64,000 nucleotides of DNA from Planctomycetaceae bacterium. GTDB lineage: Bacteria; Planctomycetota; Planctomycetia; Planctomycetales; Planctomycetaceae. How positions within the stretch are numbered: the stretch's first letter is position 1; each line of letters opens with the position of its first letter. The notes under the pieces were generated by a model. That model was not told the origin of the DNA and did not search any database. It saw only the letters and a program-made list of their open reading frames with translations. The stretch lies in the NCBI GenBank assembly GCA_002726205.1, contig PBSL01000049.1, positions 1 to 64,000 on the forward strand, given 5' to 3'. Position numbers and translations under genes: made by a program. Positions 1,282 to 18,406 of the stretch are shown piece by piece.

Positions 1282-1377
1282 CCGCGAACGCCGGTTGACG
1301 GGCTGACTGGAGGGCGGGTTTCATCGATCCTCGCAAGAGGAGGGCGCCCGGGGTGTTTGCTCGGAACGAGAACCAAA

Positions 1378-3060
1378 ATGGAAATCGAACAGGTTTTATT
1401 GCAGAGCGGGCTGATCGATGACGATCAGCGGCGATTGGCTGCCGAGCAGGCCAATGGTCGCCGGATCGATCATGTGCTGGTCGAGATGGGGGTGTTGACC
1501 GAGGAACAGGCCCTGCAGGCATTCGCCAACGAACTGGGGATGGAGTACCTGGAACTTGGCGATTTCACTGTTGACGGCGACCTGATCGCCCAGTTTCCCA
1601 CCGGGCCGATTTTTCGTCACGAGTTGCTGCCCCTGGATCGTCACAACGGCAGTGTCCGCGTGGCCACCAGCGACCCGTTCGACCTCGAAGCGCTCAACGA
1701 ACTCGAGGCACTTTCGGGAATGCAACTCGAGCCGGTGCTGGCGCGCCGGAGCGACGTCGTCGACCTGATCAAGGCGAACCTGGGTGTCGGCGGTGACACC
1801 GTCAACCAGCTGGTCGCCCAGCGATCCGACGATGGAGTCGAACTTCTCGATGAAATCGACGACGTCGACGGCGAATTGATCGGCGAGGCCCAGGCGGCCT
1901 CGGTGATCAGGCTCGTCAACGAACTGCTCGTCGAGGCGTTGGCATTGAACGCGACCGATGTGCACGTCGAACCCCAGGACCAGGGGTTGCGGGTCCGTTA
2001 CCGTATCGACGGCCTGTTGCAGATCCAGCCGGTGCCGCCGGAAATCAACCACTTCTACACGTCGATCGTTACGCGACTGAAGATCATGTCGCGGCTGAAC
2101 ATCGCCGAGAAGCGACTGCCCCAGGATGGGCGGATCAAGCTGAGAATCCACGGTCGCGATATCGACGTGCGGGTCTCGATCATTCCCATGATCCACGGCG
2201 AAGGAATTGTGCTGCGACTGCTCGACAAGGGACGAATGGTCTTTGAACTGGCCAACGTCGGGTTGCCCGACGACATGGTGACCGCGTTTCACGAGCTGAT
2301 CGAGTTGCCGCACGGCATCCTGCTGGTGACCGGCCCGACCGGTTGTGGCAAGACCACGACACTTTATTGCTGCCTGAACGAGATCAAGTCCCCGAAGACG
2401 AAGATCGTCACCGTCGAGGATCCCGTCGAGTACCAGACCGAGGGAATCAACCAGATCCAGGTCCACACCAAGATCGGCCTGACCTTTGCCCACGGCTTGC
2501 GGAGCATCCTGCGGCACGATCCCGACGTGATCCTGCTGGGTGAAATTCGCGACGGCGAAACGGCCAACGCGGCGATCCAGGCCGCGTTGACCGGTCACTT
2601 CGTCTTCAGCACCCTGCACACCAACGACGCTCCCAGTGCGTTTACCCGGTTGACCGACATGGGGGTCGAACCGTTCCTGGCGGCCAGTACGATCGAGGGC
2701 GTGATGGCCCAGCGGCTCGTACGGAGACTGTGCGAGAACTGTCGGAAACCCTTCAAGCCCGGCGATGGCGATGTGCCCGTCGACTTCCCACGGCCGTTAC
2801 CCGACGAGTTGTTCCGGCCGGGTGGCTGTCGGCAATGTCGCAACACCGGCTATGCCGGACGGGTCGGCATCTTTGAACTGCTGATCACCGACGAGGGTGT
2901 CCGCGAGTTGAGCGTCAATCGGTCAAGTTCCACCGAAATTCGTCGGCACGGACTCGAGAATGGCATGATCACCCTGCGCCAGTCCGGATGGAAGAAGGTG
3001 CAAGAGGGAGTCACCGACGCCGAGGAAATCGCCCGGGTCACCAAGGGGGACCTGGTCTAG
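1378..3060 (+). CDS. gspE: Type II secretion ATPase GspE
   Basis: Cytoplasmic hexameric ATPase that powers pseudopilus assembly. The N-terminal ~150 residues match the GspE/PilB N domain that contacts GspL. The C-terminal motor has Walker [10 protein letters not shown] (aa 319-327), an aspartate box and Walker B around [15 protein letters not shown] (near aa 381), and a zinc-type tetracysteine (C452, C455, C484, C487). The open frame begins at a TTG at 1357, but the ATG at 1378 gives the family-typical MEIEQVLL start and is preferred. Its 560 residues are normal for the family. It heads the E-F-G-H-I-J-K-L-M-D run, 18 bases before gspF. Confidence 0.95.
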
Positions 3061-3078
3061 TCGCCGGTTTTTGATGCC

Positions 3079-4302
3079 ATGCCCGATTTTCAATACATAG
3101 CCCGTGAACTTTCCGGTCGCGAAGTGACCGGCGTGCTGACGGCCGTCAACGAGGCCGAGGTGGCCGGTTCGCTGACGACGCAGCGATTGTTCCCGTTGAA
3201 AATCGAGTTGGCCGAGGAAGAAAAGAAACAAAGGAAATATGCCGGCCGGCGAGTCGGGGCCCGGCACCTGGCGACTTTCTACAGCCAACTCTCCGACCTG
3301 CTCACCTCGGGTGTCCCGCTGCTGCGATCCCTTGATCTGCTCGAGCGGCAGACAACCCGCGGGGCCATGAAACTGGTACTCAACGACGTCCGCGACCAGG
3401 TCGCCGACGGAACCCCGCTGGCGACGGCCATGGGCCAACATCCGAAGATCTTCGGTGAGCTCGCCATCAGCATGGTTCGGGCCGGCGAGGAAGGCGGATT
3501 TCTCGAAGAGGTGCTCAAGCGGGTGTCGATGTTCACCGAGCACCAGGAGGATCTCAAGGGCCGTGTCGTGGGCGCCGTCGCCTACCCGGCATTCCTGGTC
3601 ACGGTTGGCCTGGCAGTCGTCATCGTGATGATCGTCTGGTTCGTCCCCAAGTTCGAACCGATCTTCGTTCGACTTGCCAAGACCGGTGACCTGCCCTGGG
3701 CCACGACGACACTGCTGGGAATCAGCGGGTTCTTGCAGGCCACCGCGATCGAATCACTGGGGATTCCCGTCTGGGCCCTGGGACTGCTGGTAATGGCCGC
3801 CGCCGTCTTTGCGGTGAATAACTGGGTCAAGACCGAGACCGGGCGCGTTTTTTATCACGGGCTGCGGTTACGGCTGGGGGTTATCCGCAGCCTGGCGACC
3901 GCCAGGTTCTGCAGGATCTTCGGCACGTTGCTGGCCAACGGGGTCCCGATCCTGCTGTCGCTGCGGATTGCCAAGGATGCCACCGGCAACGTGATCCTTG
4001 CCGAGGCGATCGACACGGCCGCCGACAGCGTCCAGTCGGGAAAGACACTGTCGGGACCACTCGCCGCCAGTGGCCAGTTTTCCAACGAGATCGTGGAGAT
4101 GATCTCCGTCGGCGAGGAGGCCAACAACCTCGAACAGGTCCTGGTCAACATCTCCGACAACCTCGAACGCCGCACCTACCGTCAACTGGAACTGGGAGTT
4201 CGTTTTCTCGAACCGGTGATGCTGATGATGATCGCCGGAATCGTGCTGTTTGTCGTGGCGGCCCTGCTGCTGCCGATCTTCCAGAGCTCCGGAACACTGT
4301 AA
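3079..4302 (+). CDS. gspF: Type II secretion inner-membrane platform protein GspF
   Basis: Polytopic platform protein that couples the GspE ATPase to pseudopilin assembly. The 407 residues have the expected duplicated T2SSF domain, each copy beginning with a phrase like FYSQLSDLLTSGVPLLRSL (aa ~73) or CRIFGTLLANGVPILLSL (aa ~278). Hydrophobic segments lie at about aa 165-190, 229-248 and 378-400. It sits between gspE and gspG in the classical order. Identification is secure from architecture and context. Confidence 0.95.
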   Translation: MPDFQYIARELSGREVTGVLTAVNEAEVAGSLTTQRLFPLKIELAEEEKKQRKYAGRRVGARHLATFYSQLSDLLTSGVPLLRSLDLLERQTTRGAMKLVLNDVRDQVADGTPLATAMGQHPKIFGELAISMVRAGEEGGFLEEVLKRVSMFTEHQEDLKGRVVGAVAYPAFLVTVGLAVVIVMIVWFVPKFEPIFVRLAKTGDLPWATTTLLGISGFLQATAIESLGIPVWALGLLVMAAAVFAVNNWVKTETGRVFYHGLRLRLGVIRSLATARFCRIFGTLLANGVPILLSLRIAKDATGNVILAEAIDTAADSVQSGKTLSGPLAASGQFSNEIVEMISVGEEANNLEQVLVNISDNLERRTYRQLELGVRFLEPVMLMMIAGIVLFVVAALLLPIFQSSGTL

Positions 4303-4362
4303 TCCCAACCAACCACCGGGCCGGGACCCGGGCAACGAGCTGAACCTGGGGAGAACAAGTCC

Positions 4363-4824
4363 ATGAAGAATTACACGCACAAGACCAAACGACGTCACGG
4401 CTTCACCCTGCTGGAAGTCCTGCTGGTGCTGGCGATCCTGATCGCCATCGCCGCGATGGTTGTTCCCAACCTGATCGGCCGGGGTGACGAGGCCAACAAG
4501 GACATCACGCGAATCAACATCGCCAACTTCGAGAAGGCGGCACAGATGTACCGGATCGACAACAAGCGATGGCCGGAAGGGGGCGCCCAGGAGGTGTTGG
4601 AGCTGCTGATGGAGGGCGTCGATGACCAGGGAAGGCAGCGGGCGCCCTATCTCGACAAGATTCCCATGGATGCCTGGGACCAGCCGCTGTTGTACGAGTA
4701 TCCCACGCAACAGGTCGGCAACACCGACAGGCCGCTGATCTACTCGCTGGGACCCAACGGGATCGAGGGTGGCGATGACGACATCACCAACCTCGACGAG
4801 ATCATCGAGCAGCAGAACCTGTAA
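4363..4824 (+). CDS. gspG: Major pseudopilin GspG
   Basis: Major subunit of the periplasmic pseudopilus. It has a short basic leader ending RRHG, then FTLLEVLLVLAIL, so prepilin peptidase should cut between Gly13 and Phe14, leaving Glu5 of the mature chain. The C-terminal region has a GspG-like layout, with WPEGG, PYLDKIPMDAWDQPLLYEYP, a SLGPNG turn and an acidic GGDDD segment where GspG proteins bind calcium. A GGGGAG ribosome-binding site lies 8 bases before the ATG. Its length of 153 residues is typical. The prepilin peptidase it needs is not in the window. Confidence 0.96.
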   Translation: MKNYTHKTKRRHGFTLLEVLLVLAILIAIAAMVVPNLIGRGDEANKDITRINIANFEKAAQMYRIDNKRWPEGGAQEVLELLMEGVDDQGRQRAPYLDKIPMDAWDQPLLYEYPTQQVGNTDRPLIYSLGPNGIEGGDDDITNLDEIIEQQNL

Positions 4825-4891
4825 CGGGCGTCATCGATTTCGTGAAGCCGTCGTGGGGGGAATGCGGCCCGGAACGCGCTGGAATCATCCG

Positions 4892-5497
4892 ATGAAAACC
4901 AATGCCGCTATCCTGCGCAGCCGCAACGGTTTCACGCTGTTGGAACTGTTGTTGGTGTTGGGGATCCTGGTGGCCCTGGCCGGTCTCTCCTGGCCGTCGG
5001 TGACCGGGATGCTCGAGCGGATCGAGCTGCAGGAGGCCGTCGAACCGGTGCGAGCCAACCTGGCCGGGACTCGAATCCGCGCGCTCGACGCGGGAGTCAG
5101 TTGGCAGTTTCGCTTCGAACCCAAGGGGCGGAACTTCCTGGTGGTGCCCTACGAGTTCGACCAACTTGAGCAGGACCAGCAGCAGCAGGAACAACTGGCG
5201 GTTCTGCCGCGGGTTGCCGGATCACTGCCCGAGGGATACGAGTTTGCCGCCGCAAGCGAATCGGTCAACGGGACCGAACGGGTGACCGAGGAATCGCTGG
5301 AGGGCCTGTCGAGCCAGAAGGACCTCTCGGGGGTCAACTGGTCACCTCCCCTGTTGTTCTACAGCGACGGATCAGCCACCGATGCCGCCTTTGACATCGT
5401 CTTGACCAAGACCAAGCGAGCCCGCCGACTGACACTGCGGGCGCTGACGGGGGCGGTCACCGTCTCGACTGACGATGAGCAGGTGAGGCCAAGATGA
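4892..5497 (+). CDS. gspH: Minor pseudopilin GspH/FimT-like
   Basis: Minor pseudopilin of the T2SS tip/initiation complex. The ATG at 4892 starts a leader ending RNG followed by FTLLELLLVLGIL, with Glu5 present; the frame is open further upstream but that part overlaps gspG and is not leader-like. The 201-residue product continues with a GspH-type segment (RIRALDAGVSWQFRFEPKG). The stop shares ATGA with the next start, implying translational coupling to the gspI-like gene. The H assignment rests on position and the GspH/FimT-like soluble domain. Confidence 0.85.
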   Translation: MKTNAAILRSRNGFTLLELLLVLGILVALAGLSWPSVTGMLERIELQEAVEPVRANLAGTRIRALDAGVSWQFRFEPKGRNFLVVPYEFDQLEQDQQQQEQLAVLPRVAGSLPEGYEFAAASESVNGTERVTEESLEGLSSQKDLSGVNWSPPLLFYSDGSATDAAFDIVLTKTKRARRLTLRALTGAVTVSTDDEQVRPR

Positions 5498-5964
5498 AAC
5501 GCCGTAAGAATTCAGCGTCGACGTCTCGATCCGGTCTTCCCTCCGGCATGACATTGCTGGAGGTGCTGGTGTCGCTGTCAATTTTCCTGGGTTCGTTTGC
5601 CGCGGTAAGCCAATTGTTCAACCTCGGCAGCCGGGCCGCGATCCGCGCGGCGCTGGAAACCCAGGCCGTGCTCCGTTGCGAATCAAAACTCGCCGAGCTT
5701 GTCGCGGGAGTCGAGTCGCTGGAGGCGGGCGAGGCAACGCCGTACGAGGATGATCCCCGCTGGAACTGGTCACTGGTCGTCAACGCCGCCGAACAAAACC
5801 CCAGCCTGATGGAGGTGGTGGTGACGGTGGCCTTTCAGCCCGAGGCCGCGCCGGAGGGCCACCGCTTCTCGCTGACACGATTGCTCCTGGATCCCCAGGT
5901 GGTCTTAGACGCCGAGGAAGAAGCCGCGGCGGCGGCCGAGGCCGAGGAGGCGGAAGCCCCGTGA
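5494..5964 (+). CDS. gspI: Minor pseudopilin GspI-like
   Basis: Small (156 aa) pseudopilin. The leader ends LPSG and the mature N-terminus reads MTLLEVLVSLSIFLG, which keeps Glu5 but has Met instead of Phe at position 1. The following phrase, with AVLRCESKLAELVAG, is in keeping with the GspI/PilV group. The C-terminus is an unusual Ala/Glu tail (about 20 residues, nearly all A and E). It overlaps its upstream neighbour by ATGA and its downstream neighbour by GTGA. The assignment as I is from order and sequence style and is probable rather than certain. Confidence 0.82.
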   Translation: MKRRKNSASTSRSGLPSGMTLLEVLVSLSIFLGSFAAVSQLFNLGSRAAIRAALETQAVLRCESKLAELVAGVESLEAGEATPYEDDPRWNWSLVVNAAEQNPSLMEVVVTVAFQPEAAPEGHRFSLTRLLLDPQVVLDAEEEAAAAAEAEEAEAP

Positions 5965-6845
5965 AACGCAGAGGATTTACACTCCTGGAAGTCCTGGTGG
6001 CACTTGGTGTGAGCCTGATGCTGATGACGGCGGTCTATTCGTCGATCGACCTGCACTGGAAATACCAGTCGGCCGGGCGGTTGGAAATGGAGCGAGGCCA
6101 GGTCGCCCGCGCCGTGTTGCAACGCCTGGCACTGGATATCCGCTCGGTCCAGTTCGTCAAGCCGAGAGCCTCGGAAGAGGAATCCGACGCGGAGACCGAG
6201 TTGGGTGCGGAAACCACCGAATTCGTTGATCCCGATGAGGCGGTTCTGATGCAAAGCGTCGGGGTCGTCGGCACCGCGAACCGGTTGATGTTGCACGTCA
6301 GCAAGCCGTTACCGGCACGGGCATTGCGGAGCACGTTCGATGACGAGGTGGATGAAACCATGCTGTTCCACAGCGACCAGATGTCGGTGGTCTGGTTCCT
6401 GGCCGATTCCAACGGGGGAGAACTCGAGGCGATGGTCGCCGCTCGGGTCGAAACCGATCCACCCGTCGGCGTGATTTCAATGCTGCTGGAACGGATCGAC
6501 GACGGCGGACCGCTGGGGTTGGCACGCAGCGAGGCCGATCGGTTCCAGTCGACGCAGGCCGAGGCCGACGGGGACCTCTCGGTCATGGCCGACAGGGCCG
6601 AGTTTCTTGCCCCGGAAATCGACCTGTTGCTCTTCCGTTACTTCGACGGGATCGAGTGGATGGAGGAGTGGGACAGCGAGGCGCTGGGAGCGCTGCCGCT
6701 GGCGATCGAGATCACGATCGGTTTCGTTCCACCACCCGAGGATGACGTGTTGCGGGCCGCGGCGGCCGGCAGTATTCCCGATTCGTACCGGTTCGTCGTG
6801 GCCTTGCCGCTGGCCGAATCGGTGGATCTAGAAAGTGGCCTGTAA
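5961..6845 (+). CDS. gspJ: Minor pseudopilin GspJ-like
   Basis: Starts at GTG within the GTGA overlap with gspI. The very short leader MKRRG is followed by FTLLEVLVALGVSLML, a classical type IV pilin-like N-terminus with Glu5. At 294 residues it is larger than most GspJ proteins (about 200), with an acidic insertion near aa 75-90. The phrase RGQVARAVLQRLALDIRSVQ matches the GspJ helix-to-sheet transition. The predicted role is in the tip complex with GspI and GspK. Confidence 0.84.
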   Translation: MKRRGFTLLEVLVALGVSLMLMTAVYSSIDLHWKYQSAGRLEMERGQVARAVLQRLALDIRSVQFVKPRASEEESDAETELGAETTEFVDPDEAVLMQSVGVVGTANRLMLHVSKPLPARALRSTFDDEVDETMLFHSDQMSVVWFLADSNGGELEAMVAARVETDPPVGVISMLLERIDDGGPLGLARSEADRFQSTQAEADGDLSVMADRAEFLAPEIDLLLFRYFDGIEWMEEWDSEALGALPLAIEITIGFVPPPEDDVLRAAAAGSIPDSYRFVVALPLAESVDLESGL

Positions 6846-6859
6846 GAGGCAGCAGCGAC

Positions 6860-8527
6860 GTGTTTGACGTGCGACACCATGACCGAACGACCGGTGACCA
6901 GCGGAGAGGATCCGTGCTGGTGATCGTGCTCGTCGTCGTGGCAATGCTGGCACTGGGCGCCTACACGTTCTCCGAGACGATGATGAGCGAGGCCGCGGCG
7001 ACGAACATGTACGGTCGCCGGGCCCAGACCCGGGCACTGGCCGATTCGGGCCTGGAGCTGGTCTCGGCGCTGTTGAGCGAAGAGATCGATCCGCTCGAGG
7101 TCAGCCTCTATCACGACCCGATACAGTTTCATGCCGTCACGGTACTCGAATCCGACAACCCGTTACTGAGGGGGCGGTTTACGGTCGTTGCGCCGGTCGA
7201 GTCCGACCTGGATGCGCGACAGATTCGCTTCGGCCTGATGGACGAATCGGCGCGACTGAATCTCAACACGATTCTTCAACTGCAACTGCCGGCGCCGGCA
7301 GCACCCGAGGGGTCGGAATCGAGCGACGGTGACTCGGAGTCGTCATCGGCATTCGATCCGGTCCACGCCGTGCAGCGCAGCTTGTTGATGGGGCTGCCCG
7401 AGATGACCGAGGAGGTCGCCGACGCCATCCTGGACTGGCTCGATGAGGATGACGACCCTCGCGAGTTCGGGGTCGAGAGCGACTACTACGAATCGCTCTC
7501 GCCACCCTATTCGGCACGCAACGGCCCGATCGAAAGTCTCGATGAACTCCTGAAGATAGCCGGAGTCGACTCGTTTCTGCTCTTCGGCGAGGACGCCAAT
7601 CGCAACGGGTTGCTGGATCCCAACGAGGATGATGAGGACGGGCGGCCTCCCTTTGACAATGGCGATGGCATTCTCGATCTGGGCTGGAGTGCCTACCTGA
7701 CGGCCAGGAGTCGCGAGGTCAACAAGCGGGCCGACGGTTCCGAACGGATCAACCTCAACGAGGGCCTGCTGACGGAACTCTACGACACGCTCGAGGAGGA
7801 ACTGGGCGAGGAAGTTGCCCAGTTTGTCGTCGGCTATCGCATGTACGGGTCGGTGGAAAATCCCGCCAGCGGGGACTTTCCCTCCGAACAGAACAAGTCG
7901 GTCACCCGGGGCGAAATGGACCTCAGTGGAGGCTCCCGTCGAGAAATCAAGTCGATCTACGACCTGGTAGGAATCGAGGTGGCTGCCATGGACTCCGACG
8001 ACGTGGCCCTGACGCTGGTCAGTCCCTGGGACGCGGATCCCTCGGCGATGATCGAGTACCTGCCGGACCTGATGGACGCGTTGACCACGAACGAGGATCC
8101 GTTCATCTCGGGACGGATCAACATCAACCAGGCTCGCGAGGAAGTTTTGCAGGGAGTCTTCGAGGTCCTGATCGAGGATCCCGAGCAGGCAACCGAAACG
8201 GCGGCGGCGATCATCGCGGCCCGGGCGGTTGATCCGGACACCGGTGAACCGACGATCGACGATGCCGGGGCCCGGGCCACCAATGGCTGGTTGGTGATCG
8301 AGGGAGTGGTCGACCTGGCGACGATGAGAAAACTCGATCCGTTTCTGACCACCCGCGGCAGCGTGTTCCGGATGCAGGTGGTCGGGTACTTCGACACCGG
8401 GGGCCCGTTCACACGGCTCGAGGCGGTGATCGATGCCAGCGAGGATACTCCGAAACTGGTGTTTGTTCGTGACCTGACCGAACTGGGCAAGGGGTTCTCT
8501 TACCAGGCCTTGGTGCCGGAGGAGTAG
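6860..8527 (+). CDS. gspK: Pseudopilus tip protein GspK-like
   Basis: Large minor pseudopilin (555 aa; proteobacterial GspK is about 320-340). The leader ends RRG and the mature segment SVLVIVLVVVAML lacks Glu5, the hallmark of GspK, the tip subunit. Downstream are the helical-domain phrases typical of GspK: LMDESARLNLNT, ADAILDWLDEDDDPREFG (near aa 190) and INLNEGLLTELYD. An EF-hand-like acidic loop, DANRNGLLDPNED, begins near aa 247 and may bind calcium. It follows gspJ after 14 bases and starts with GTG. The extra length includes acidic insertions and a C-terminal region of unclear fold. Confidence 0.88.
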   Translation: MFDVRHHDRTTGDQRRGSVLVIVLVVVAMLALGAYTFSETMMSEAAATNMYGRRAQTRALADSGLELVSALLSEEIDPLEVSLYHDPIQFHAVTVLESDNPLLRGRFTVVAPVESDLDARQIRFGLMDESARLNLNTILQLQLPAPAAPEGSESSDGDSESSSAFDPVHAVQRSLLMGLPEMTEEVADAILDWLDEDDDPREFGVESDYYESLSPPYSARNGPIESLDELLKIAGVDSFLLFGEDANRNGLLDPNEDDEDGRPPFDNGDGILDLGWSAYLTARSREVNKRADGSERINLNEGLLTELYDTLEEELGEEVAQFVVGYRMYGSVENPASGDFPSEQNKSVTRGEMDLSGGSRREIKSIYDLVGIEVAAMDSDDVALTLVSPWDADPSAMIEYLPDLMDALTTNEDPFISGRININQAREEVLQGVFEVLIEDPEQATETAAAIIAARAVDPDTGEPTIDDAGARATNGWLVIEGVVDLATMRKLDPFLTTRGSVFRMQVVGYFDTGGPFTRLEAVIDASEDTPKLVFVRDLTELGKGFSYQALVPEE

Positions 8528-8647: not shown

Positions 8648-10189
8648 ATGGCAGATTTCCTATCACTTGAGTGGAGCGAAAAGATCGTCGGCGTTGAAGC
8701 CTCGGTCCAGGACGACCGTGTGCAGGTTCGCCGTTGCTTCGTTCTCGACCGCGAGGATGCTCCGCAGGAGCAGGGCCCGTTGAGCGAATGGCTGAGGGCC
8801 GCGCTGGATGAACAGGGCGTGACGGCCAGGCAGGCCGTGGTGTCGCTGCCGCGGCAGGATGTCGTGACACGCAACCTCGAGCTCCCGGTGGTTTCCAGCG
8901 ATGAACTGCCCGACCTGGTCCGTTTCCAGGCCGGGGCGAAGTCGTCACTGCCGTTGGACCAGATGGGCATCGATTTTCTGCCGTTGCCCCACGACGAGGA
9001 CAGCGAGGCCTGTTCGGTCCTGCTGGCCACCGTTCCCAAGGCCACGATCGACGAGATCACCACGGTCCTGGCCGGGGCCGGGATCGGCCTGGTCGGGCTG
9101 GGTGTCGGCTCGGTCGCCCTGACCGACCTGGTCGTGATGGACGCATCGACTGTCGGTGACGGACTGGTGGTGGCCGGAGACGCGACGCGACTGGATGTCA
9201 CGATCCACAGGGATGGTCGGACCGCGTTCACGCATTCGACATGGCTGGCCGAGGACGGCGATTCGATCCAGGTGGCCTCCCAGGCGATCAGCCGGGCCCT
9301 GTTCGCCGCCCGTAACTCGATGCCCGATCTGAAAGTTGGCGACGCTCATCTGCTGGGGCCACTGTCGAATGACCTGGTCGAAACGGTGCGGGCCCGTCTG
9401 AGCGGACCGGGATTTGACACCCGGGTCGAAGTGATTTCACTGAAGAACCTCTCACGGGTTCGTTTCGAGGAGGATCCCGGCGACACGGCCGAATTGCCCG
9501 CGGTCGGAGCCGTGCTGGGACAGCTGCTGGGCCACGCGGGATTGGTCGCCGAACGGATCGATTTTCTCGATCCTCACCGAGCCGCACCCCCGGCACGCAG
9601 GATTTCCGGTCAGAACCTGGCTTATGCGCTCGCCGCGGTGTGCGTGATGGCCGTCTTGATCACCGGGATTCGGACCTGGCGGACCAGTGATGTCGATGGC
9701 TTAATCACGGGTGTCAAGAAAAAGGTGGCCAAAGAGGAGCGGGCCTTCTTCGGGGGCACTCCGGTGACAAAGAAGTTGCCTTCGGTTGGCCTCGTCGATC
9801 GCTGGAAAAGTCAACGGGTCAATTGGCTCGATCAGTTCAGCGAGCTTTCGCCTCTGATCGACAACGACGAGATCGTGTTCACCGAGCTGGACATGACCCA
9901 GGAAGTTCGTACAGGCCTGGGACGGATCACCGTGACCGGCCTGGCGACCGATCGCCGGCCGGTGACCGACCTGACCAACCGCGTTCGCGGAAGTTCCAAT
10001 TACAAGGTGCCGGCCAAGAAGTTCGACGAGAACAAGGACCGCGATACCCAGGACTACAAGATCAGGTTCAGCAAGGTTGATATCTCGCTGGAGGGCAAGG
10101 CCAAGCCTCCCAAGGCGGCTCCCAAGTCCGATGGTGACGAAGAGCAGGAAGGGTCGACGACCGCGTCGACGGAGAGGACGGGATCATGA
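8648..10189 (+). CDS. gspL: GspL/PilM-like inner-membrane assembly protein
   Basis: Bitopic protein that links the GspE ATPase to the periplasm. Residues 1-300 have the actin-like PilM/GspL cytoplasmic fold (ARQAVVSLPRQDVVTRNLELP is the diagnostic stretch near aa 58). A single membrane helix lies at about aa 323-343. About 170 periplasmic residues follow, the likely PilN/GspL ferredoxin-like part, ending in a Lys/Pro/acidic tail. A 120-base gap separates it from gspK, with no clear promoter. The stop overlaps the next start by ATGA. Confidence 0.85.
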   Translation: MADFLSLEWSEKIVGVEASVQDDRVQVRRCFVLDREDAPQEQGPLSEWLRAALDEQGVTARQAVVSLPRQDVVTRNLELPVVSSDELPDLVRFQAGAKSSLPLDQMGIDFLPLPHDEDSEACSVLLATVPKATIDEITTVLAGAGIGLVGLGVGSVALTDLVVMDASTVGDGLVVAGDATRLDVTIHRDGRTAFTHSTWLAEDGDSIQVASQAISRALFAARNSMPDLKVGDAHLLGPLSNDLVETVRARLSGPGFDTRVEVISLKNLSRVRFEEDPGDTAELPAVGAVLGQLLGHAGLVAERIDFLDPHRAAPPARRISGQNLAYALAAVCVMAVLITGIRTWRTSDVDGLITGVKKKVAKEERAFFGGTPVTKKLPSVGLVDRWKSQRVNWLDQFSELSPLIDNDEIVFTELDMTQEVRTGLGRITVTGLATDRRPVTDLTNRVRGSSNYKVPAKKFDENKDRDTQDYKIRFSKVDISLEGKAKPPKAAPKSDGDEEQEGSTTASTERTGS

Positions 10190-12048
10190 ACATGAAGCGA
10201 CGAGAATCCATCCTGGCGACCGCGACGGCCGTCGTTTTCGGTATCTGGTTGTTCGGCGGTTCGCTGCTGGAACTGACACTGGGTCCCGTCGAGGCCCGCA
10301 CTCAGGAACTGGCTGCGCTGAATGTTCGCCTCGCCGAGTTGAAGAAGCTCAACGAGTGGAAAAACCAGAGCCTGGCCAGGCCCGATGGCGATGACGTGGG
10401 CCGGGCGACCGAACAGTATCGTCAGTGGGTCTGGGACCTGGCCGAAACGGTCGGGGAGTTCGAGGGTGTCAACGTCGGCCCGTACAAGCGGGTCAGCGGT
10501 GCCGCGCGACGGGGACTTGTGCCCGTGCAGGTCAAGTTGACCGCCCAGGCGACCCTGGGCAACATCAAGAAATTCCTCTACCACTTCTACCAGGCCGACC
10601 TGTTGCACCGGATCGTCTCGATCCAGTTGGAGACCGACACTCACGACGGTGATCCCACACTCGAAGTGGCGATGGTTGCCGAAGGGCTTTCACTACCGTA
10701 TGCCGCTGCCGGTGTCTCGAATCGCGACACGCTGTTTCCGCGAACACTTCTGGTCGATGATGTGGGGGCCGACGAACTCGAGTTGACCGTTGAGGACCAG
10801 AAGGGATTTCCGACCAAGGCATTTCGCGTGAGGGCCGGTGCGGAGTTCTTCGACGTAACCAAGACCGAGAAGAGGAAATGGACGGTTGAACGCGGGGAAT
10901 CGGCCGATGACCACGATGCCGATACGACCGTCGAGCTGGCGACGATTCACGCGGACAGAGAGAAACTGCAGCTCGAGGACTACAAGTTCGTCAACCCGTT
11001 CGCCCGTTACATCCCGCAACTGGTGTTTGTCGGCAGCAAGAGATACACGCTGGGTGACACGGTCAAGCTGACCGCCAGGCTCACCGGGATCGAGCCCGAC
11101 GCAAAACCAAGCTATTTCCTGGTTTCGCCCCCCAAGGAACTGTCGATCGAAAAGGCCACCGGCAAGCTCGAATGGAAGTCGAACGACGATCAAGAATCCG
11201 GCCAGGTGACGATCCGCGTGGAGGCCAAGCTTGGCACGCGTACCTTGTCCGGAGAAACCAGCATTCAGTTCAATGAGGTCGTCGTCAAGAAAACTCCAGT
11301 CCGCAACGACGAACCGGTGCTGGTCAAACTGGATGACATCAGTGGCATCGCCGGACGAGCCGTCGAATTCACCGCGTCGGCGACCGATCGTGAGGACGGC
11401 AAACTGTCATTTCGCCTCGCGGAAGGGGCTCCGGAAGGGGCCACGATCGGGGCCGAGACGGGGAAGTTTCGCTGGGTTCCCGAGTCACCAGGCAAGTTCG
11501 AAGTCAATGTGACCGTGTCGGATGGCGGGTCACCCGCCAAGAAGTCCACCGCCACGGTGACGATCAGCATCACACTGAATCCGGCAGAATTCACCGTCCT
11601 GGTCGCCTCGATCACGCGCAACGGAAAAAAGGAAGTTTGGCTACGCGATCAACTCAACAACAAGCTCTTCGTTCTGCAGTCCGGGTCGCGATTCAAGGCC
11701 GACGACGTTGATGCGGAAGTTGTTTCGATCGGTAGCCAGGAGGTGGTGTTCCGGGTCGGTAAGAACGACCACCGCGTGAAACTGGGCGAAAGCCTGCAGA
11801 AGCTCAGAGAAACCGACGCAGAGAAGCCTACTGAGAAAGCTTCAGAGAAGTCCGGGAAGCCGGCAGAGAAGGCTACTGAGAAAGCTTCAGAGAAGTCTGG
11901 GAAGCCGACAGAGAAGCCTACTGAGAAAGCTTCAGAGAAGTCCGGGAAGCCGACAGAGAAGGCTACTGAGAAAGCTCCAGAGAAGTCTGGGAAGCCGGCA
12001 GAGAAGGCCACCGATAAGGCTGAGAAGAAGCCCGCTGACGACCAGTAG
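10186..12048 (+). CDS. GspM/PilO-like protein fused to Ig-like repeats and a GspC/PilP-like domain
   Basis: The N-terminus has a short cytoplasmic basic stretch, one membrane helix (aa 8-28), a coiled coil and a PilO/GspM-like domain to about aa 170. Two Ig-like (He_PIG/cadherin-like) repeats follow at about aa 280-365 and 370-465; both contain TGKxxW (TGKLEW and TGKFRW). Residues ~467-540 form a small beta domain (ASITRNGKKEVWLRD, then LQSGSRF, then VVFRVGKNDHRVKLGESL). This resembles the GspC homology region / PilP fold that docks on the secretin N0 domain. A Lys/Glu/Pro repeat tail ends the 620 residues. The product thus appears to combine GspM and GspC, and no other gspC is seen nearby. 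The fusion reading is inference from motif resemblance and needs structural confirmation. Confidence 0.75.
   Translation: MNMKRRESILATATAVVFGIWLFGGSLLELTLGPVEARTQELAALNVRLAELKKLNEWKNQSLARPDGDDVGRATEQYRQWVWDLAETVGEFEGVNVGPYKRVSGAARRGLVPVQVKLTAQATLGNIKKFLYHFYQADLLHRIVSIQLETDTHDGDPTLEVAMVAEGLSLPYAAAGVSNRDTLFPRTLLVDDVGADELELTVEDQKGFPTKAFRVRAGAEFFDVTKTEKRKWTVERGESADDHDADTTVELATIHADREKLQLEDYKFVNPFARYIPQLVFVGSKRYTLGDTVKLTARLTGIEPDAKPSYFLVSPPKELSIEKATGKLEWKSNDDQESGQVTIRVEAKLGTRTLSGETSIQFNEVVVKKTPVRNDEPVLVKLDDISGIAGRAVEFTASATDREDGKLSFRLAEGAPEGATIGAETGKFRWVPESPGKFEVNVTVSDGGSPAKKSTATVTISITLNPAEFTVLVASITRNGKKEVWLRDQLNNKLFVLQSGSRFKADDVDAEVVSIGSQEVVFRVGKNDHRVKLGESLQKLRETDAEKPTEKASEKSGKPAEKATEKASEKSGKPTEKPTEKASEKSGKPTEKATEKAPEKSGKPAEKATDKAEKKPADDQ
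11821..12000 (+). repeat. 45-bp tandem repeat x4 encoding EKxTEKxxEKSGKPx
   Basis: Four consecutive 45-bp units begin at 11821, 11866, 11911 and 11956, with few mismatches; a decayed fifth unit follows. They encode a Lys/Glu/Pro-rich tail at the C-terminus of the GspM/GspC-like protein. High unit identity suggests recent expansion or contraction. Confidence 0.95.
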
Positions 12049-12366
12049 CGTCCGGCTCGTGCGGGAGGATCCGCTCGGTTGCCGCTTGCGCTCGGTCGGT
12101 CGCCGCTGAAGCCGGGATGGCCTTCTAACTCGCTATCAGTTCTTCGGTTGCGCTTCCCGAAGACTTTCTGCAATCGGCAATTCTCTGTCGAATTGAGTGG
12201 TCCGACTGTAGCGATTATGTCGATGAAACCACTGCGAACGGTCGTACCGTTTGCGCCTGTCGTTCAATGGGGAGAGCGGTTTTGGCTGTTTTTTCGCAGA
12301 AATGCGGGAATTGAGTCCAGTGTAGCTGAGCGGGGTGCGAGCGTGCCGAATCAACGAGAAAATAAG
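12049..12366 (+). other. Non-coding gap before gspD
   Basis: The only gap of more than 300 bases in the window. Its composition is less GC-rich than its surroundings. An open frame runs through it in phase with gspD, but its translation is not leader-like and has no similarity in style to a secretin. No convincing promoter pair, hairpin with T-run or RNA motif was found. It may hold a separate promoter or mRNA processing site for gspD. Confidence 0.5.
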
Positions 12367-15300
12367 ATGAATCGATCACGTCGTGTGTCACTGCTGGTCT
12401 GTGGGATCGTACTGGTTGCGGCTGGCTCGATGGCCTGGGGTAAGGCCCCCTGGTCATTCCGAGACAACCGGAAGTCCGCTTCTCAGGAAAAAACGGCAAC
12501 CACTGCGGGAAAACAACAGCCACAGGGAAAGTCGTCGTTGAACTACATGTTCGGCACCGGCTGGGGCAAGGTGCTCAACCGCCTGGCTGCCGAACACGGT
12601 TTGACGATGGTGATGGACCGGATGCCACCAGGCCGGTTCACGCGTCGCGATCGTGCTCAATACACACTGGGCGATTCGATGAGGATCCTCAACAAGCAAC
12701 TGGCACAGCACGACTTTCGGTTGGTGCGACAGGCCGACTTCCTGGTTCTGATGCACCTGAGATCGACCCGGACACGTTACACGCGTCAGCGTGTTCCACA
12801 GCCGCATGTGTCTCAGCCGCCGCCGGTGGTTCCCGCGAGCCGACCGGGATACCGTTCCGAAACCCACACGATCCGGACAGCCAGGCCGGGCCGGCTGAGC
12901 AACACCGCCACGGCATCGAACATCCGCACGGTTGCCGACGAGAAATCGGCCCCAGAACGAATGACCCGTCTGCCGATAAAGCCTCGCCATCGCTCGGCCC
13001 TGCAGTTGTCGCGTCGTCTCTACATGGCCTTTCTCTCGCACAGCGAACTGGTCGATGCCAGCCCGGGACGGCTTCCGGCCTTCCGCGTGATGAATCGTCC
13101 GGTGACCAGTAAGGGCGAGGATGGCGTAGTTCCGGTTGATCCCGAGGCCGTGACACGCTTCACCGTGGAAATCGATACCAAGAACAACCAGCTGGTTCTC
13201 GAGGCCCCTCACAGCACATCAATGGCCCTGGTCCGGATGATCCGGCTGCTGGACGTGCCCAACGGGGACGAGCAGCCGCAGCTCAGTGTTCGCAAGACCA
13301 AGAAAAACAGCGAGGATGTTGCCGCGAAGGTCCGTCCGGTGATCAAGGGCCTTGTCGATGACGGGACGAGTTCCTCCCCACGAATCCGGGTTCTGTCGCA
13401 ACTGGCACAACGCCAGAAGGCCCAGCCCAAGGCTCAGCCGAAAGCCCAGCGCAAGGGGCAGCCCAAGGTTCAACGCAAGGGGCAACCCAAGGTTCAGCGC
13501 AAGGGGCAGCCCAAGGTCCAGCGCAAAGGGCAACCCAAGGTCAAGTCGCAGCCCACGCGTCGCGGGCAACCTCCCATCGCAGATCAGCCCAGGGACGACT
13601 TTGAGCCGACCGAGGCGATCCTGGGTGGACTGAAGGGGCAGGTCAAGATCGAGGTCCTGCCGGATGGACGGTTGGTCGTGATCGGCAACGAGGCGGATGT
13701 CGAGAAGGTGATGTCGCTGATCAACCTGCTCGAAGCAGGCAGTGCACCGACGGTACCGGAATTCGAATTGGTCTTTCTTGAGCATGTCAACTCCGAGGCG
13801 CTGGCCCTGCTGTTGAACAACGTCTACGCCTCGCTGGGTACAGCGAGGTCACAGTCAGGCCAACGCGCCTCGACGGTGACAGTCGTTCCATTGATCAAGC
13901 CCAACGCCTTGCTGGTGTTGGCGGCCGAATCCGACTTGGAGGGTGTCATCCTTCTTGCCAAGGACCTGGATCGACCCGTCGATCCGGCGACCGAGTTCGA
14001 GATCTTTCACCTGGAGCACGCTTCGGCGGCGCAGATGGCCACGATGCTCGAAGACCTGTACCAGGAAGGGCAGGAACGTCCCGGGTTGGCCACGCGGGTC
14101 ACCGTGTACCCCGATGTGCGAACCAACTCGATTGTTGTTCAGGCACGTCCGCGGGACCTGGTGGAAGTGACCGAGCTTGTCCGTCGCATCGATCGTGACA
14201 GTGCCAAGACGGTCAACCAGTTGAAGGTCTTCCAGCTCAAGCACGCGGTAGCTGAAGAACTGTCCGACACGATGAACCTGGCGATCCAGAGCGTGATCAA
14301 TCCGGCGCGGTTGCCCCAGGGAGCCGGCAACGTCGGGCTCGGCGGCGGCGGAGCCGGAGGCGCCCAGGCGGCACAGCAGTTGCGTGACGTCCGCAGCGCC
14401 GTGATCGAGCTGATGCCCGAGGCCGGCAGCAAGGAGGCGAAGGTCGTCTCGGGAATTCTTTCCGATATTCGAATCAACCCCGATCCGCGGACCAACAGCC
14501 TCGTCGTCACCGCCCCGGCCCGCAGCATGAAGATGATGGCGCAATTGATCGCCCGGCTCGACAAGCCCACCAGCCTTGTGGCCGACATCAAGCACTTCCT
14601 GCTGGAAAATGCTGATGCGACGAGCGTGTCGGATCTGCTGGAAGAGTTGTTCGTGACCGACAGCGGTGGCGGCCAGGGAGGCCAGTTGGGTGTCCAGTTG
14701 GCCGGAGCCGAGGATGCCAGCAGCAGTATCGTGCCGCTGCGATTCAGCGTGGATGTTCGTACCAACAGCATCTTCGCCGTGGGTGGTCGTGAGGCCCTGG
14801 ACGTGGTCGAGGCCGTCGTGGCGCGGTTGGACCAAAGTGATATCCGGCAACGCAGGACCGAGATCTACGCGATGCGGAACAAGCCGGCCATCGATATTGC
14901 CAATGCGGTCAATGCTTTCCTGCAGTCACAACGTGACCTGCAACAGATCGATCCCGATCTTGTCAGCCCATTCGAGCAGATCGAACGGGAAGTGATCGTC
15001 GTGGGCGAACCGCAGACGAATTCCCTGATCATCAGTGCCACGCCCCGGTACTTCGACGAGATCATGAAGATGATCGAAGCACTCGATCGAGCGGCCGAAC
15101 AGGTGACCGTCCAGGCATTGATTGTCGAGGTGGAACTCAACAACACCGACGAATTCGGCGTCGAACTGGGTTTCCAGGATGACCTGTTGTTCGACCGTAG
15201 CGTGACCAGCGAAATCGTGTTCGGTCCGACGGTCACCAACACGGCACCAAACGGTGTGCAGACGACCACGCAGTCGATTCTCTCCCAGGAATCCGCACCC

Positions 15301-16452
15301 GGTTTCAATTTCAACCAGCCGGCCACGCTGTTGGGCAACAACGCGGGGGGGGCATTTTCCAGTCCTGCCACTGTCGGCAAGCAGGCTTTGAGCAATTTCC
15401 AGATGGGCCGGATCAACGGAGACCTGGGGTTTGGTGGACTCGTGCTGTCGGCGGGGTCGGAATCGGTCAATATCCTGCTGAGGGCACTGGCCGAGAACCG
15501 GAAGGTCGAGGTTCTCAGTCGCCCGTTGATCCAGTCGCTGCACAACCAGCCCGGAACGATTCTCGTCGGCCAGCAGTTCCAGCAGGTTACCGGGGCCTCG
15601 GCACCCAACGCCACGGGTTTCTCGACCCCCCAGTTTGCTCTGACCGACGTGGGCATCCAGTTGAACGTGACGCCGAATATCTCGCCCGAGGGAACCATCG
15701 TGATGGAGGTGCTGGCGACCAAGAGCCGGCTCTCACCGACCGAGAGCGTCTTCCTGTTCCAGAACCAGAACGGCACCACGGTCAACTCACCGGTCATCGA
15801 CACCTCGACCGCGCAGGCCACCGTCTCACTTCGCGACGGTCAGACGATCGTCCTGGGTGGCATGATCACCAAGACCGAAGGCTCGACCACACGCAAGGTC
15901 CCCTGGTTGGCGGACCTGCCACTGTTGGGGTCGGTGTTCCGGTATGACTCCAAGACAAGCCGCCGAACCGAACTGCTGATCTTCCTGACTCCACGGATCA
16001 TGCGGACACCGGAGGATTACGAGCAGCAGAAGCAGATCGAAGCCGAACGGATGAACTTCATGGCCGAGGAGGCCGAAAAGCTCCACGGACCACTGTTTGC
16101 ACTGCCCAAGCCGAAAATCGAAATCAAGCCGAAATCCGATCCGAAGCCTCCAGGCAAAGCGGACAAGGCGAAAAAACCCGACGAGTCGTCCGCTGATGCG
16201 GCCGCCAAGAAGGGGAGCAAGAAAAAGAAGGGGAGTAAGAAAAAGAAGGGGAGCAAGAAAGAGAAGGGGAGCAAGAAGACAGACGGTGTGGAGCCGCAGT
16301 CGGCATCGACGACCATCGATGGCAATGACTCCGACGCTGCCCTGTTTGCCCTGCCCGGTGAGGTCGAAGGGATCGAGTCGGGAGTCCCCGTCGAAGTTCC
16401 GCCGCCGGCCGACCGACGGATCAAACGGTTTTTCGGTTCGTTGATCCCCTGA
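12367..16452 (+). CDS. gspD: Type II secretion outer-membrane secretin GspD, expanded N-domains
   Basis: Outer-membrane secretion pore. The ATG at 12367 begins a signal peptide (MNRSRRVSLLVCGIVLV, cleavage near SMAWG). An N0/STN-like domain (aa ~60-125) follows, then a Pro/Lys-rich linker with tandem repeats (aa ~355-395). Five N1-type modules start near aa 463, 541, 616, 738 and 828 (for example FEIFHLEHASA, KVFQLKHAVA, EIYAMRNKPA). The secretin barrel domain spans aa ~911-1215, with VEVLSRPLIQSLHNQPGT, VGIQLNVTPNISPEG and VPWLADLPLLGSVF. The C-terminus is a Lys-rich repeat followed by an acidic stretch. At 1361 residues it is about twice a typical GspD, which has three or four N-domains. 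The frame continues upstream but is not coding-like there. Confidence 0.95.
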   Translation: MNRSRRVSLLVCGIVLVAAGSMAWGKAPWSFRDNRKSASQEKTATTAGKQQPQGKSSLNYMFGTGWGKVLNRLAAEHGLTMVMDRMPPGRFTRRDRAQYTLGDSMRILNKQLAQHDFRLVRQADFLVLMHLRSTRTRYTRQRVPQPHVSQPPPVVPASRPGYRSETHTIRTARPGRLSNTATASNIRTVADEKSAPERMTRLPIKPRHRSALQLSRRLYMAFLSHSELVDASPGRLPAFRVMNRPVTSKGEDGVVPVDPEAVTRFTVEIDTKNNQLVLEAPHSTSMALVRMIRLLDVPNGDEQPQLSVRKTKKNSEDVAAKVRPVIKGLVDDGTSSSPRIRVLSQLAQRQKAQPKAQPKAQRKGQPKVQRKGQPKVQRKGQPKVQRKGQPKVKSQPTRRGQPPIADQPRDDFEPTEAILGGLKGQVKIEVLPDGRLVVIGNEADVEKVMSLINLLEAGSAPTVPEFELVFLEHVNSEALALLLNNVYASLGTARSQSGQRASTVTVVPLIKPNALLVLAAESDLEGVILLAKDLDRPVDPATEFEIFHLEHASAAQMATMLEDLYQEGQERPGLATRVTVYPDVRTNSIVVQARPRDLVEVTELVRRIDRDSAKTVNQLKVFQLKHAVAEELSDTMNLAIQSVINPARLPQGAGNVGLGGGGAGGAQAAQQLRDVRSAVIELMPEAGSKEAKVVSGILSDIRINPDPRTNSLVVTAPARSMKMMAQLIARLDKPTSLVADIKHFLLENADATSVSDLLEELFVTDSGGGQGGQLGVQLAGAEDASSSIVPLRFSVDVRTNSIFAVGGREALDVVEAVVARLDQSDIRQRRTEIYAMRNKPAIDIANAVNAFLQSQRDLQQIDPDLVSPFEQIEREVIVVGEPQTNSLIISATPRYFDEIMKMIEALDRAAEQVTVQALIVEVELNNTDEFGVELGFQDDLLFDRSVTSEIVFGPTVTNTAPNGVQTTTQSILSQESAPGFNFNQPATLLGNNAGGAFSSPATVGKQALSNFQMGRINGDLGFGGLVLSAGSESVNILLRALAENRKVEVLSRPLIQSLHNQPGTILVGQQFQQVTGASAPNATGFSTPQFALTDVGIQLNVTPNISPEGTIVMEVLATKSRLSPTESVFLFQNQNGTTVNSPVIDTSTAQATVSLRDGQTIVLGGMITKTEGSTTRKVPWLADLPLLGSVFRYDSKTSRRTELLIFLTPRIMRTPEDYEQQKQIEAERMNFMAEEAEKLHGPLFALPKPKIEIKPKSDPKPPGKADKAKKPDESSADAAAKKGSKKKKGSKKKKGSKKEKGSKKTDGVEPQSASTTIDGNDSDAALFALPGEVEGIESGVPVEVPPPADRRIKRFFGSLIP
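13447..13542 (+). repeat. 24-bp tandem repeat x4 encoding QRKGQPKV
   Basis: Four near-identical 24-bp units sit inside gspD between the N0-like domain and the first N1-like module. They encode a basic, Pro-containing linker. Flanking degenerate units (QPKA, QRKG) extend it on the 5' side from about 13415. Confidence 0.93.
16207..16278 (+). repeat. 18-bp tandem repeat x4 encoding KKGSKK
   Basis: Four 18-bp units near AAGAAGGGGAGCAAGAAA encode a strongly basic stretch near the GspD C-terminus, after the secretin domain. In other secretins this zone holds the S-domain that binds a pilotin; here it is replaced by a lysine repeat and an acidic tail. Confidence 0.93.
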
Positions 16453-16492
16453 CGGCTCCTGTTTGCCTTTCCTCCGTCACGAAAGATGTCTC

Positions 16493-18304
16493 ATGACACG
16501 CGTCTTCAAGCGACCGACGATTGCCTGTGGACTGGTTCTCGTCCTGGCAGTCGTGTCCGGTTGCCAGTCATTCAACGGGTCAGTGCTTTCCCTGTTGCGC
16601 TCGAAGCCGGACATTCGCTGGACTGACAAAGACAACGCCGCGGTGCGGTGCCTGTGTCTTTGGCAGCAGGCGGAAGGGACCTGGAATGACCGTCCCTGCC
16701 GTGGCTTTGGAGGTCAGATCTTCTTTCTCGATCGCAGCGGGGCCGAGCCGGTTGCCGTCAACGGTGATGTTCGTATCCATATCTTCGACGACCAGGGACC
16801 ACTCGGCGGGCGGGCCAAGCCGGTCCACACGTTCAACTTCACCGACGGGGCCTGGAATGCCTTCCTGGTCAAGACCCAGTTTGGCCCGGCCTACAACATC
16901 TTCGTTCCATACACCCGTTCGGGTGCGGCCGCGGCGGAATGTTCGATCCGCGTACGTCTGAGTGGCGCCGAGATTCCGACCGTGTTCTCGGAGATGGCAT
17001 ATATCGAGCTCGAGGGGGTCAAGACAAAGACAAAGACCACCGATCCGAAGGCCGTTGCAGCCGTTGTCAAAACCGAAAAGATCACGCCCGCTGGCAAGAA
17101 GGCCGTTTCATCGACCTCGGTGTTGTCGCCGGAACTCGAAGCCCGCCTGTTGGCCCTGCAGGCCCGCAGGCCGGTGGCCAAGAAGAAAACTCCGGCACGG
17201 ATCGATCCCCCCGCCACAGCGATGCCCATCGTCGCTCAGCCCAGCGGAAAATCACGGCAGCTTCCCGTCACGCCTTCGTTCCACCCACTGAGTGGTCCGG
17301 ATTCCCGGCCCGCAGGCCACCAGCATCCGCTTGTTCCTGGTGATGATTCAACGAGCGATCCGGCCGATGTCGGCCGGGATCTCCCACGGCCGACCGACGT
17401 GGACGTTGATCGCAAGCCGGTGACAACGCCTCCCAGCGACCCGTTTTCGCAGATGATCAAGAATGCAGAATCGGCGAAGTTGTCATCGGCAAAGAAGCTG
17501 ACCGAACCGAAAGCTCTGGCGGCGGACCGGACCAAGAAGCCGACCGTGTTGTCTCCCGCTCTCGAGGCCCGGCTGCTGGCCCTGCAGGCACGGATGCCGA
17601 TCGCCAGGAAACAGACCAAACAGACCCCGGCTCGGATCGATCCTCCCAGCACGGTCCGACCGATCAAGCCTGCGAACGCAGGACAAATCGGTAACAGCCC
17701 TGCATCATCGACACACCCGCTGGGCGAGTCCGACGCCCGAACCGGGGCAGTTGCCCGGCCGATGAAAAGCGGGCCGAAGAACCAGCCGGTCAGCGGGCGG
17801 GTCGAGCTGGCAACGCACCGATCGGATCGGTTTCAACAGATGATCAATTCCGCGCAATCGGCCGCGGCTCGTCAGGACTGGGACCGGGCCATTCGCCTGG
17901 CCGCCGAGGTTCACCGAGCACTGGTTCAAGAGAAGACAAGCTGGCCTGGCAACCAGCCGTCGCCATCAGACCTGGTCGCCGGCTGGGAAGTCGAGCGGAT
18001 CATCGCTTCCAGTGGCAGTCGGGAGATGAGGAAACGGAGAATTGATTCCCGGGTGAGTGATTACCTGAACGCTTCACGGCGTCAACAGGAAATCGGTCAG
18101 GGATCCGAAGCTCGGCGATTGGCGATGGTCGGAAACCTGATCGCTGAAAAAGGCGGCCAGGAAATCCAGGCCGTGGTGCGGCAGGTCCAACACGGGGCCG
18201 ACAAAGGAGAGCATTCCCCGGCCGGGGGTTGGTCGGCATCGGCACGACCGACACAGGCGGCGCCAGCGGCGCATCCTCTCGGACCGCTTGACGGTGCTCG
18301 CTAG
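16493..18304 (+). CDS. Planctomycete-type lipoprotein with beta-sandwich-like N-domain and internal duplication
   Basis: Lipoprotein of 603 residues: the ATG at 16493 gives a signal peptide with lipobox VSGC (Cys24). An upstream in-frame GTG is not leader-like. Residues ~35-180 form a domain with phrases such as VRCLCLWQQAEG, GFGGQIFFLDR and FVPYTRSG, which I associate with a lipoprotein type common in planctomycetes, of unknown function. The middle is low-complexity Pro/Lys sequence containing a roughly 38-residue block twice (LEARLLALQAR) and a second short motif twice (QMIKNAESA / QMINSAQSA). The C-terminus is helical. It begins 41 bases after gspD, so it could be a pilotin-like or other accessory factor; that is inference from position only. 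Confidence 0.75.
   Translation: MTRVFKRPTIACGLVLVLAVVSGCQSFNGSVLSLLRSKPDIRWTDKDNAAVRCLCLWQQAEGTWNDRPCRGFGGQIFFLDRSGAEPVAVNGDVRIHIFDDQGPLGGRAKPVHTFNFTDGAWNAFLVKTQFGPAYNIFVPYTRSGAAAAECSIRVRLSGAEIPTVFSEMAYIELEGVKTKTKTTDPKAVAAVVKTEKITPAGKKAVSSTSVLSPELEARLLALQARRPVAKKKTPARIDPPATAMPIVAQPSGKSRQLPVTPSFHPLSGPDSRPAGHQHPLVPGDDSTSDPADVGRDLPRPTDVDVDRKPVTTPPSDPFSQMIKNAESAKLSSAKKLTEPKALAADRTKKPTVLSPALEARLLALQARMPIARKQTKQTPARIDPPSTVRPIKPANAGQIGNSPASSTHPLGESDARTGAVARPMKSGPKNQPVSGRVELATHRSDRFQQMINSAQSAAARQDWDRAIRLAAEVHRALVQEKTSWPGNQPSPSDLVAGWEVERIIASSGSREMRKRRIDSRVSDYLNASRRQQEIGQGSEARRLAMVGNLIAEKGGQEIQAVVRQVQHGADKGEHSPAGGWSASARPTQAAPAAHPLGPLDGAR
17120..17665 (+). repeat. Internal duplication within lipoprotein gene
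   Basis: Two diverged copies, 17120-17230 and 17546-17665, encode LEARLLALQAR, a basic stretch, and TPARIDPP. A related second pair, encoding SDPFSQMIKNAESA and SDRFQQMINSAQSA, begins near 17435 and 17819. The pattern indicates an ancient segmental duplication of a two-element unit. Confidence 0.85.
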
Positions 18305-18364
18305 GCGACTGAGCGACCTTCGCAGGGATTACCCCGGGAACTTCGGCCCACGCGCGGCAGCGTG

Positions 18365-18373
18365 TGCTATACT
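18365..18373 (+). promoter_or_regulatory. Extended -10 promoter candidate upstream of BON-domain gene
   Basis: The string TGCTATACT is an extended -10 (TGn plus TATACT, five of six consensus bases). It lies 34 bases before the ATG at 18407, which has a GGAGGA ribosome-binding site at 18394-18399. No good -35 is visible at the usual spacing, as is acceptable for extended -10 promoters. It would let the last two genes of the cluster be transcribed separately. Confidence 0.45.
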
Positions 18374-18406
18374 CCGCTTGGAGCAGTTTCCCTGGAGGAT
18401 GAGCCG

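Follow-up and report, generated by a model that had tools for sequence, protein, structure and literature searches.

The locus described here raises the question of whether one polypeptide takes the places of both GspM and GspC in a type II secretion system (T2SS). In the window, i.e., the whole 64,000-nucleotide stretch of planctomycete DNA that was analysed, an open reading frame between gspL and gspD had been proposed in a preliminary description to join a GspM-like N-terminal domain to a GspC/PilP-like domain across Ig-like repeats. We consider it very probable that the encoded protein is a GspM-GspC fusion, in which the homology region (HR) stands in the place of GspC and in which a phage-tail-like β module (RGT) and Ig-like modules were inserted around the former GspC linker.

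Gene Organization of the Locus

The genes follow the order E-F-G-H-I-J-K-L-fusion-D (Table 1). A single locus encodes the T2SS gene set of a GspD-type secretin, the ATPase GspE, the platform protein GspF, and the pseudopilins G to K, and the open reading frame at 10186-12048 directly adjoins gspL, as expected of a GspM/PilO gene. Could the machine instead resemble a type IV pilus, with the protein being a PilO-PilP fusion as in pseudomonads? The order L-M-C-D equals pilM/N-O-P-Q, and the best fold matches of the two halves are PilO and PilP (see below). However, the pseudopilin set G-H-I-J-K is full, including a GspK recognized by the Pfam family T2SSK_1st (E = 4e-17), and the secretin scores higher with the GspD model (326.6 bits) than with the PilQ model (200.8 bits), both scores lying below the curated cut-offs. 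We therefore regard the pilus assignment as unlikely and treat the machine as a T2SS.

Judging from the sequence, translation of gspD likely starts with the ATG at 12367 rather than with the TTG at 12079, which would give the predicted signal peptide MNRSRRVSLLVCGIVLV. The N0-like region of GspD is weakly recognized, with PF21305 matching three of six homologues below the cut-off, and a profile search of the PDB with this region found no secretin. Upstream of gspE, window positions 1-1281 encode two or three Secretin_N domains without a secretin domain, followed by C-terminal SRGGS repeats; this frame is truncated by the contig start, and similar N-domain-only proteins occur upstream of gspE in three other loci. 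Downstream of gspD (16463-19120), a 613-residue protein with no family assigned and a BON-domain protein are encoded co-directionally with the operon. The genome also contains a second secretin-domain open reading frame (contig C71, positions 122-1447), rich in GGM repeats and located near a contig end.

Table 1. Features of the secretion locus in the window, with the evidence for each.
Feature	Residues	Position	Strand	Evidence
gspE, F, G, H, I, J, K, in this order		1357..8527	+	E-J named by sequence; relatives with the same order
gspL (PilM-like and PilN-like)		8648..10189	+	Pfam PilM_2 9.7e-8; PilN weak (0.14)
gspM-gspC fusion gene (very probable)	620 aa	10186..12048	+	Open for 620 codons; homologues fused in the first-survey loci
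GspM/PilO-like domain with coiled coil	1-175	10186..10710	+	Profile, Pfam in homologues, AF2, Foldseek
Single N-terminal transmembrane segment	about 7-31	10204..10278	+	Kyte-Doolittle, 19-residue windows, maximum 1.87 at 9-27
RGT β module, phage-tail-like	183-254 (72 aa)	10732..10947	+	Family profile E = 1e-23
NPF motif		10993..11004	+	F272 invariant in alignment A3
Ig-like module 1	277-362	11014..11271	+	Family Ig profile 5e-14
Ig-like module 2	377-460	11314..11565	+	Pfam He_PIG 1.3e-11, Big_9 1.9e-8; family Ig profile 1e-24
GspC homology region/PilP-like domain	465-540	11578..11805	+	AF2 and Foldseek; hhalign
Low-complexity KSGKPTEKA-type tail		11821..12045	+	Sequence; without PDZ match in Pfam
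gspD secretin		12079..16452	+	Pfam Secretin E = 8e-42, Secretin_N x6; TIGR02517 E = 3e-97

The N-Terminal GspM/PilO-Like Half

The window copy of residues 1-175 is too divergent for a Pfam match, but among 56 homologues Pfam assigned T2SSM to 12, PilO to 11, and T2SSM_b to 10. The closest solved relative of the N-terminal profile (A2) in a profile search of the PDB was PilO (3jc8, E = 0.0075). The AF2 model shows an alpha-beta-beta-alpha-beta-beta fold (pLDDT 85), for which Foldseek returned PilO as the top match (E = 2.3e-4) and Amuc_1100 as the second, with the PilO structures 2rjz and 5uvr among the best matches. The protein possesses the transmembrane segment and the periplasmic ferredoxin-like domain that characterize GspM and PilO; its second-highest Kyte-Doolittle window (1.46 at residue 458) coincides with a β-strand stretch at the junction of the second Ig-like module and the HR. 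The profile, the Pfam assignments of the homologues, the predicted fold, and the adjacency to gspL are all in line with the PilO/GspM-like domain at the gspM position of the preliminary description.

The C-Terminal HR Domain

The surveyed relatives share the C-terminal domain as a homologous unit. The profile boundaries (Table 1) lie near the residues 467-545 for which the preliminary description had suggested a GspC-HR/PilP-like β domain on the basis of its layout, and structure prediction bears this assignment out. The AF2 model of residues 455-548, computed from 22 natural sequences, comprises seven strands with a pLDDT of 81.6 (about 90 in the core). Among 350,542 PDB chains, the first six Foldseek ranks are all PilP or GspC (PilP 3jc8 and 2ivw, GspC 3oss, PilP 2y4y, 2lc4, and 4av2), the first three with a probability of 1.00, although the E-values are modest (best 4.6e-3) and the TM-scores are moderate (0.57-0.58 by query, and 0.80 by target for 3oss).

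We also compared profiles. Twelve GspC-HR sequences retrieved from other planctomycetes with PF11356 yielded a planctomycete GspC profile, which recovers the solved GspC structures (2lnv/OutC/7oio/3oss) at 4e-7 to 4e-9. Aligned to this profile by hhalign, the fused HR family reached a probability of 96.7 (E = 4e-10, 62 columns); the controls, namely the RGT, Ig, and N-terminal profiles, 30 column shuffles, and the reversed profile, gave at most 2.6. The GspC profile also finds fused proteins of other genomes directly (e.g., 5.8e-6 and 2.4e-5), and one of its twelve sequences (L103) matches the fused-HR profile as well and thus bridges both sets of HRs. Direct Pfam, NCBIfam, and PDB sequence searches with the HR gave weak matches only. 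When the HR profile was searched against the PDB by sequence alone, GspC was reached at just E = 0.42; the case for homology therefore combines fold, profile, and synteny. Strong PDB matches of the HR profile to the designed propeller "Pizza" were rejected, since each is a weak 27-residue match repeated six times. Several members of the family show weak matches to YajC and RuvA_N, both small barrels, which would fit an unrelated small β-barrel resembling GspC-HR by chance. This is highly improbable, given the Foldseek ranks, the hhalign result with its controls, and the separate but adjacent M and HR genes described below.

Two features of GspC accompany neither this domain nor its surroundings, whereas the β-sandwich homologous to the PilP core is there. 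An own cytoplasmic segment and transmembrane helix do not precede the linker and the HR, the single transmembrane segment belonging to the GspM part, and the HR is followed by the low-complexity tail with no Pfam PDZ match instead of a second periplasmic region (PDZ or helix). The region after the HR varies within the GspC family (PMC11981180).

Separate and Fused Genes Among Planctomycetes

Planctomycetes of other classes encode the two domains by separate neighbouring genes, in the order L-M-C-D at four loci and M-C-D at a fifth, and their separate C protein is itself hydrophobic at the N-terminus. These systems share the order E-F-G-H-I-J-K-L with the window. Because these classes keep both domains in neighbouring genes of matching position and order, we take the window protein to be a genuine GspM-GspC fusion. 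Three other loci of the phylum have the classical type, in which gspC precedes gspD-E.

A search for the fusion in other planctomycete T2SS loci, as the preliminary description had proposed, found it widespread across the class. The fused gene adjoins L in more than 60 loci and precedes D wherever D falls within the stretch; it occurs throughout the first-survey loci and in 21 named contigs, including those of Thalassoglobus neptunius, Gimesia, Schlesneria, Planctomicrobium, and Fuerstiella. The HR profile matched 126 of 249 genomes of the class, and among the HR matches listed, all but one lie in frames of at least 296 residues, the exception being a 122-residue frame with a stop. In a phylum-wide sample, each of the 17 genomes of the same family in which the HR was matched had exactly one match, and PF11356 matched none of these 17. 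These relatives place the genome of the window, by inference, within the Planctomycetaceae.

In a GspF tree, built by a quick method without bootstrap and with an outgroup on long branches, all 40 fused rows fall on one branch (SH-aLRT 99) and three separate-gene systems fall outside, which corresponds to one change between separate and fused. Most likely, a single event joined adjacent gspM and gspC genes before the sampled class radiated. The spacer type changes at least six times on the same tree, and the one-Ig form constitutes its own clade (95), distinct from the RGT+Ig forms.

In another family of the class, the HR profile found no HR in the GspM-like proteins (L135:7082-8764 and L136:6936-8282); by eye, their C-terminal part resembles an HR interrupted by an insertion. 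The secretins of this family measure 2092-2205 residues.

Modules of the Spacer

The preliminary description had noted two Ig-like repeats with a TGKxxW motif in each. The motif regions read KATGKLEWKS and AETGKFRWVP, and the family Ig profile supports both modules and Pfam the second. A third module of the spacer, at residues 183-254, had been overlooked. This RGT module has the conserved pattern GFP..F.VR.G.E...V....W.V.RG and is present in all long (RGT+Ig) relatives. PHROG 1101 ("tail protein") matches 14 of 22 members (best 3.5e-8), albeit not the copy of the window, and Foldseek matched the module to the tailspikes 4y9v and 9k4a with a probability of 1.00. The module is duplicated in Gimesia-type relatives (five loci).

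In alignment A3, RGT precedes F272 of the NPF motif and the Ig-like modules follow it. An N-[IPV]-F motif also stands ahead of the HR in separate GspC proteins (KNVFS, RNIFS, and KNPFS) and in short fused proteins, and on this sequence likeness the NPF motif is read as the point where the former GspC linker begins. Among the fused proteins, the spacer ranges from 37 to 371 residues. It measures 37-78 residues in proteins lacking modules; a single Ig goes with a length of about 140, RGT+Ig with 211, RGT+2Ig with about 300, and 2RGT+2Ig with 371. RGT alone also occurs (two loci).

A Possible Architecture and the Role of the Spacer

In the Klebsiella machine, the HR of GspC is suspended from the N0 ring at the base of the secretin and connected to the platform by flexible linkers (PMC6882859). 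By homology, the HR of the fusion protein, as the counterpart of GspC, would dock on N0 at the N-terminal end of GspD. The N-terminal transmembrane segment and ferredoxin-like domain, as the counterpart of GspM, would lie next to GspL and anchor the protein in the assembly platform. The RGT and Ig inserts around the flexible GspC linker would then form a long, partly folded periplasmic tether. The GspC part has lost its own membrane anchor and has no PDZ, and the spacer modules were most likely gained at different times after the fusion.

Folded modules make up the spacer, which is longest in one family, and such a spacer might serve as a ruler for periplasmic width or secretin length. We find this rather improbable. 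Single genomes (five, with the co-resident systems at five loci) contain both long (about 570-640 residues) and short (about 305-335 residues) versions of the protein, and the length from N0 to the secretin domain is nearly constant at 832-919 residues against spacers of 57 to 371 (Spearman 0.35, p = 0.30, n = 11, a small sample uncorrected for phylogeny). The ruler model is not supported because long and short spacers coexist in genomes and the spacer does not track the secretin length. The modules probably do not measure distance; a putative binding role or neutral elongation of the linker is more likely.

Modules of the He_PIG and phage-tail types commonly serve in binding or adhesion. Tentatively, the Ig and RGT modules may substitute for the absent PDZ (2P) region, holding substrates or the cell wall in addition to spanning a distance. 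The window protein has no PDZ, and modules come and go with no matching change in secretin length; on the other hand, no ligand is known, and many fused proteins without any module are presumably functional.

Free GspC and Stoichiometry

No free gspC was found in the genome of the window, which at 96% completeness leaves a small chance of an overlooked gene: neither PF11356 nor PF04351 matched, the HR profile found the open reading frame 10186-12048 as its sole match, and the GspC profile gave a non-significant fragment only (E = 0.24). The preliminary description had likewise found no gspC elsewhere in the run. Some relatives of the same class have a second secretion or pilus system with a separate GspC/PilP-like protein (five loci), encoded beside the genes of that other system and away from the fusion locus. 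As the fused HR escapes PF11356 in the genome of the window, fused systems could easily be missed in annotation. This is relevant to a T2SS detection model in which gspC is mandatory (PMC6668835). In an earlier survey, very few T2SS were reported from bacteria other than Proteobacteria (PMC4793230).

The ratio of GspC to GspM should be 1:1, because the two are fused and no free GspC was detected in the genome; we infer this ratio for the assembled machine, unless another GspC exists. The ratio PulC:E:L:M:N was measured as 2:1:1:1:1, with 12 PulC versus 15 secretin subunits (PMC6882859). A 2025 study proposed six C-L-M trimers and noted GspC dimers as unconfirmed (PMC11981180), and a 1:1 ratio of GspM to GspC had been argued from rare PilO-PilP fusions of type IV pili (Korotkov et al., 2011; PMC3169554). 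The number of GspC copies per platform is thus disputed (12 vs. 6), and a T2SS with C and M in one chain makes the question directly testable. It is conceivable, though still speculative, that the class-wide fusion locks GspM and GspC into a 1:1 ratio (six copies of each per machine, or a multiple of six), in contrast to the 2:1 ratio of C to M measured in Klebsiella, and that the GspC linker now serves as an evolvable slot for binding modules, one of them of phage-tail type, which tune substrate capture.

Comparison With Known Systems

In the open-access literature, we found no description of a GspM-GspC fusion of a T2SS or of planctomycete T2SS components. The fusion protein resembles GspC (T2SSC, PF11356; PulC, OutC, EpsC) in the HR fold and in its predicted position in the machine, and unfused planctomycete GspC has the same NxF-type motif and linker before the HR. 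Unlike GspC, it is joined to GspM, with neither a GspC transmembrane segment nor a PDZ of its own, and it is encoded after gspL, whereas gspC heads the series C-D-E-F. With GspM (T2SSM) and PilO (PF04350), it shares the N-terminal transmembrane segment, the coiled coil, the alpha-beta-beta-alpha-beta-beta fold, and the gene position directly after gspL, but it has 445 extra residues consisting of the spacer modules and the HR. The match to Amuc_1100 of Akkermansia, which has a PilO-like fold, covers the PilO-like part only.

The closest precedent is the PilO-PilP fusion (Pseudomonas putida Q88CU9, cited in PMC3169554), where two homologous domains reside in one chain as they do here, at the level of homologous domains and in what looks like a T2SS. 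The PilO-PilP fusion belongs to the type IV pilus and was reported for few cases, with no inserted modules mentioned (PMC3169554); the fusion of the window type belongs to a T2SS, is widespread across its class, and carries Ig and phage-tail-like modules in between. PilO-PilP fusions are already known, and the T2SS version with inserted modules is a new variant.
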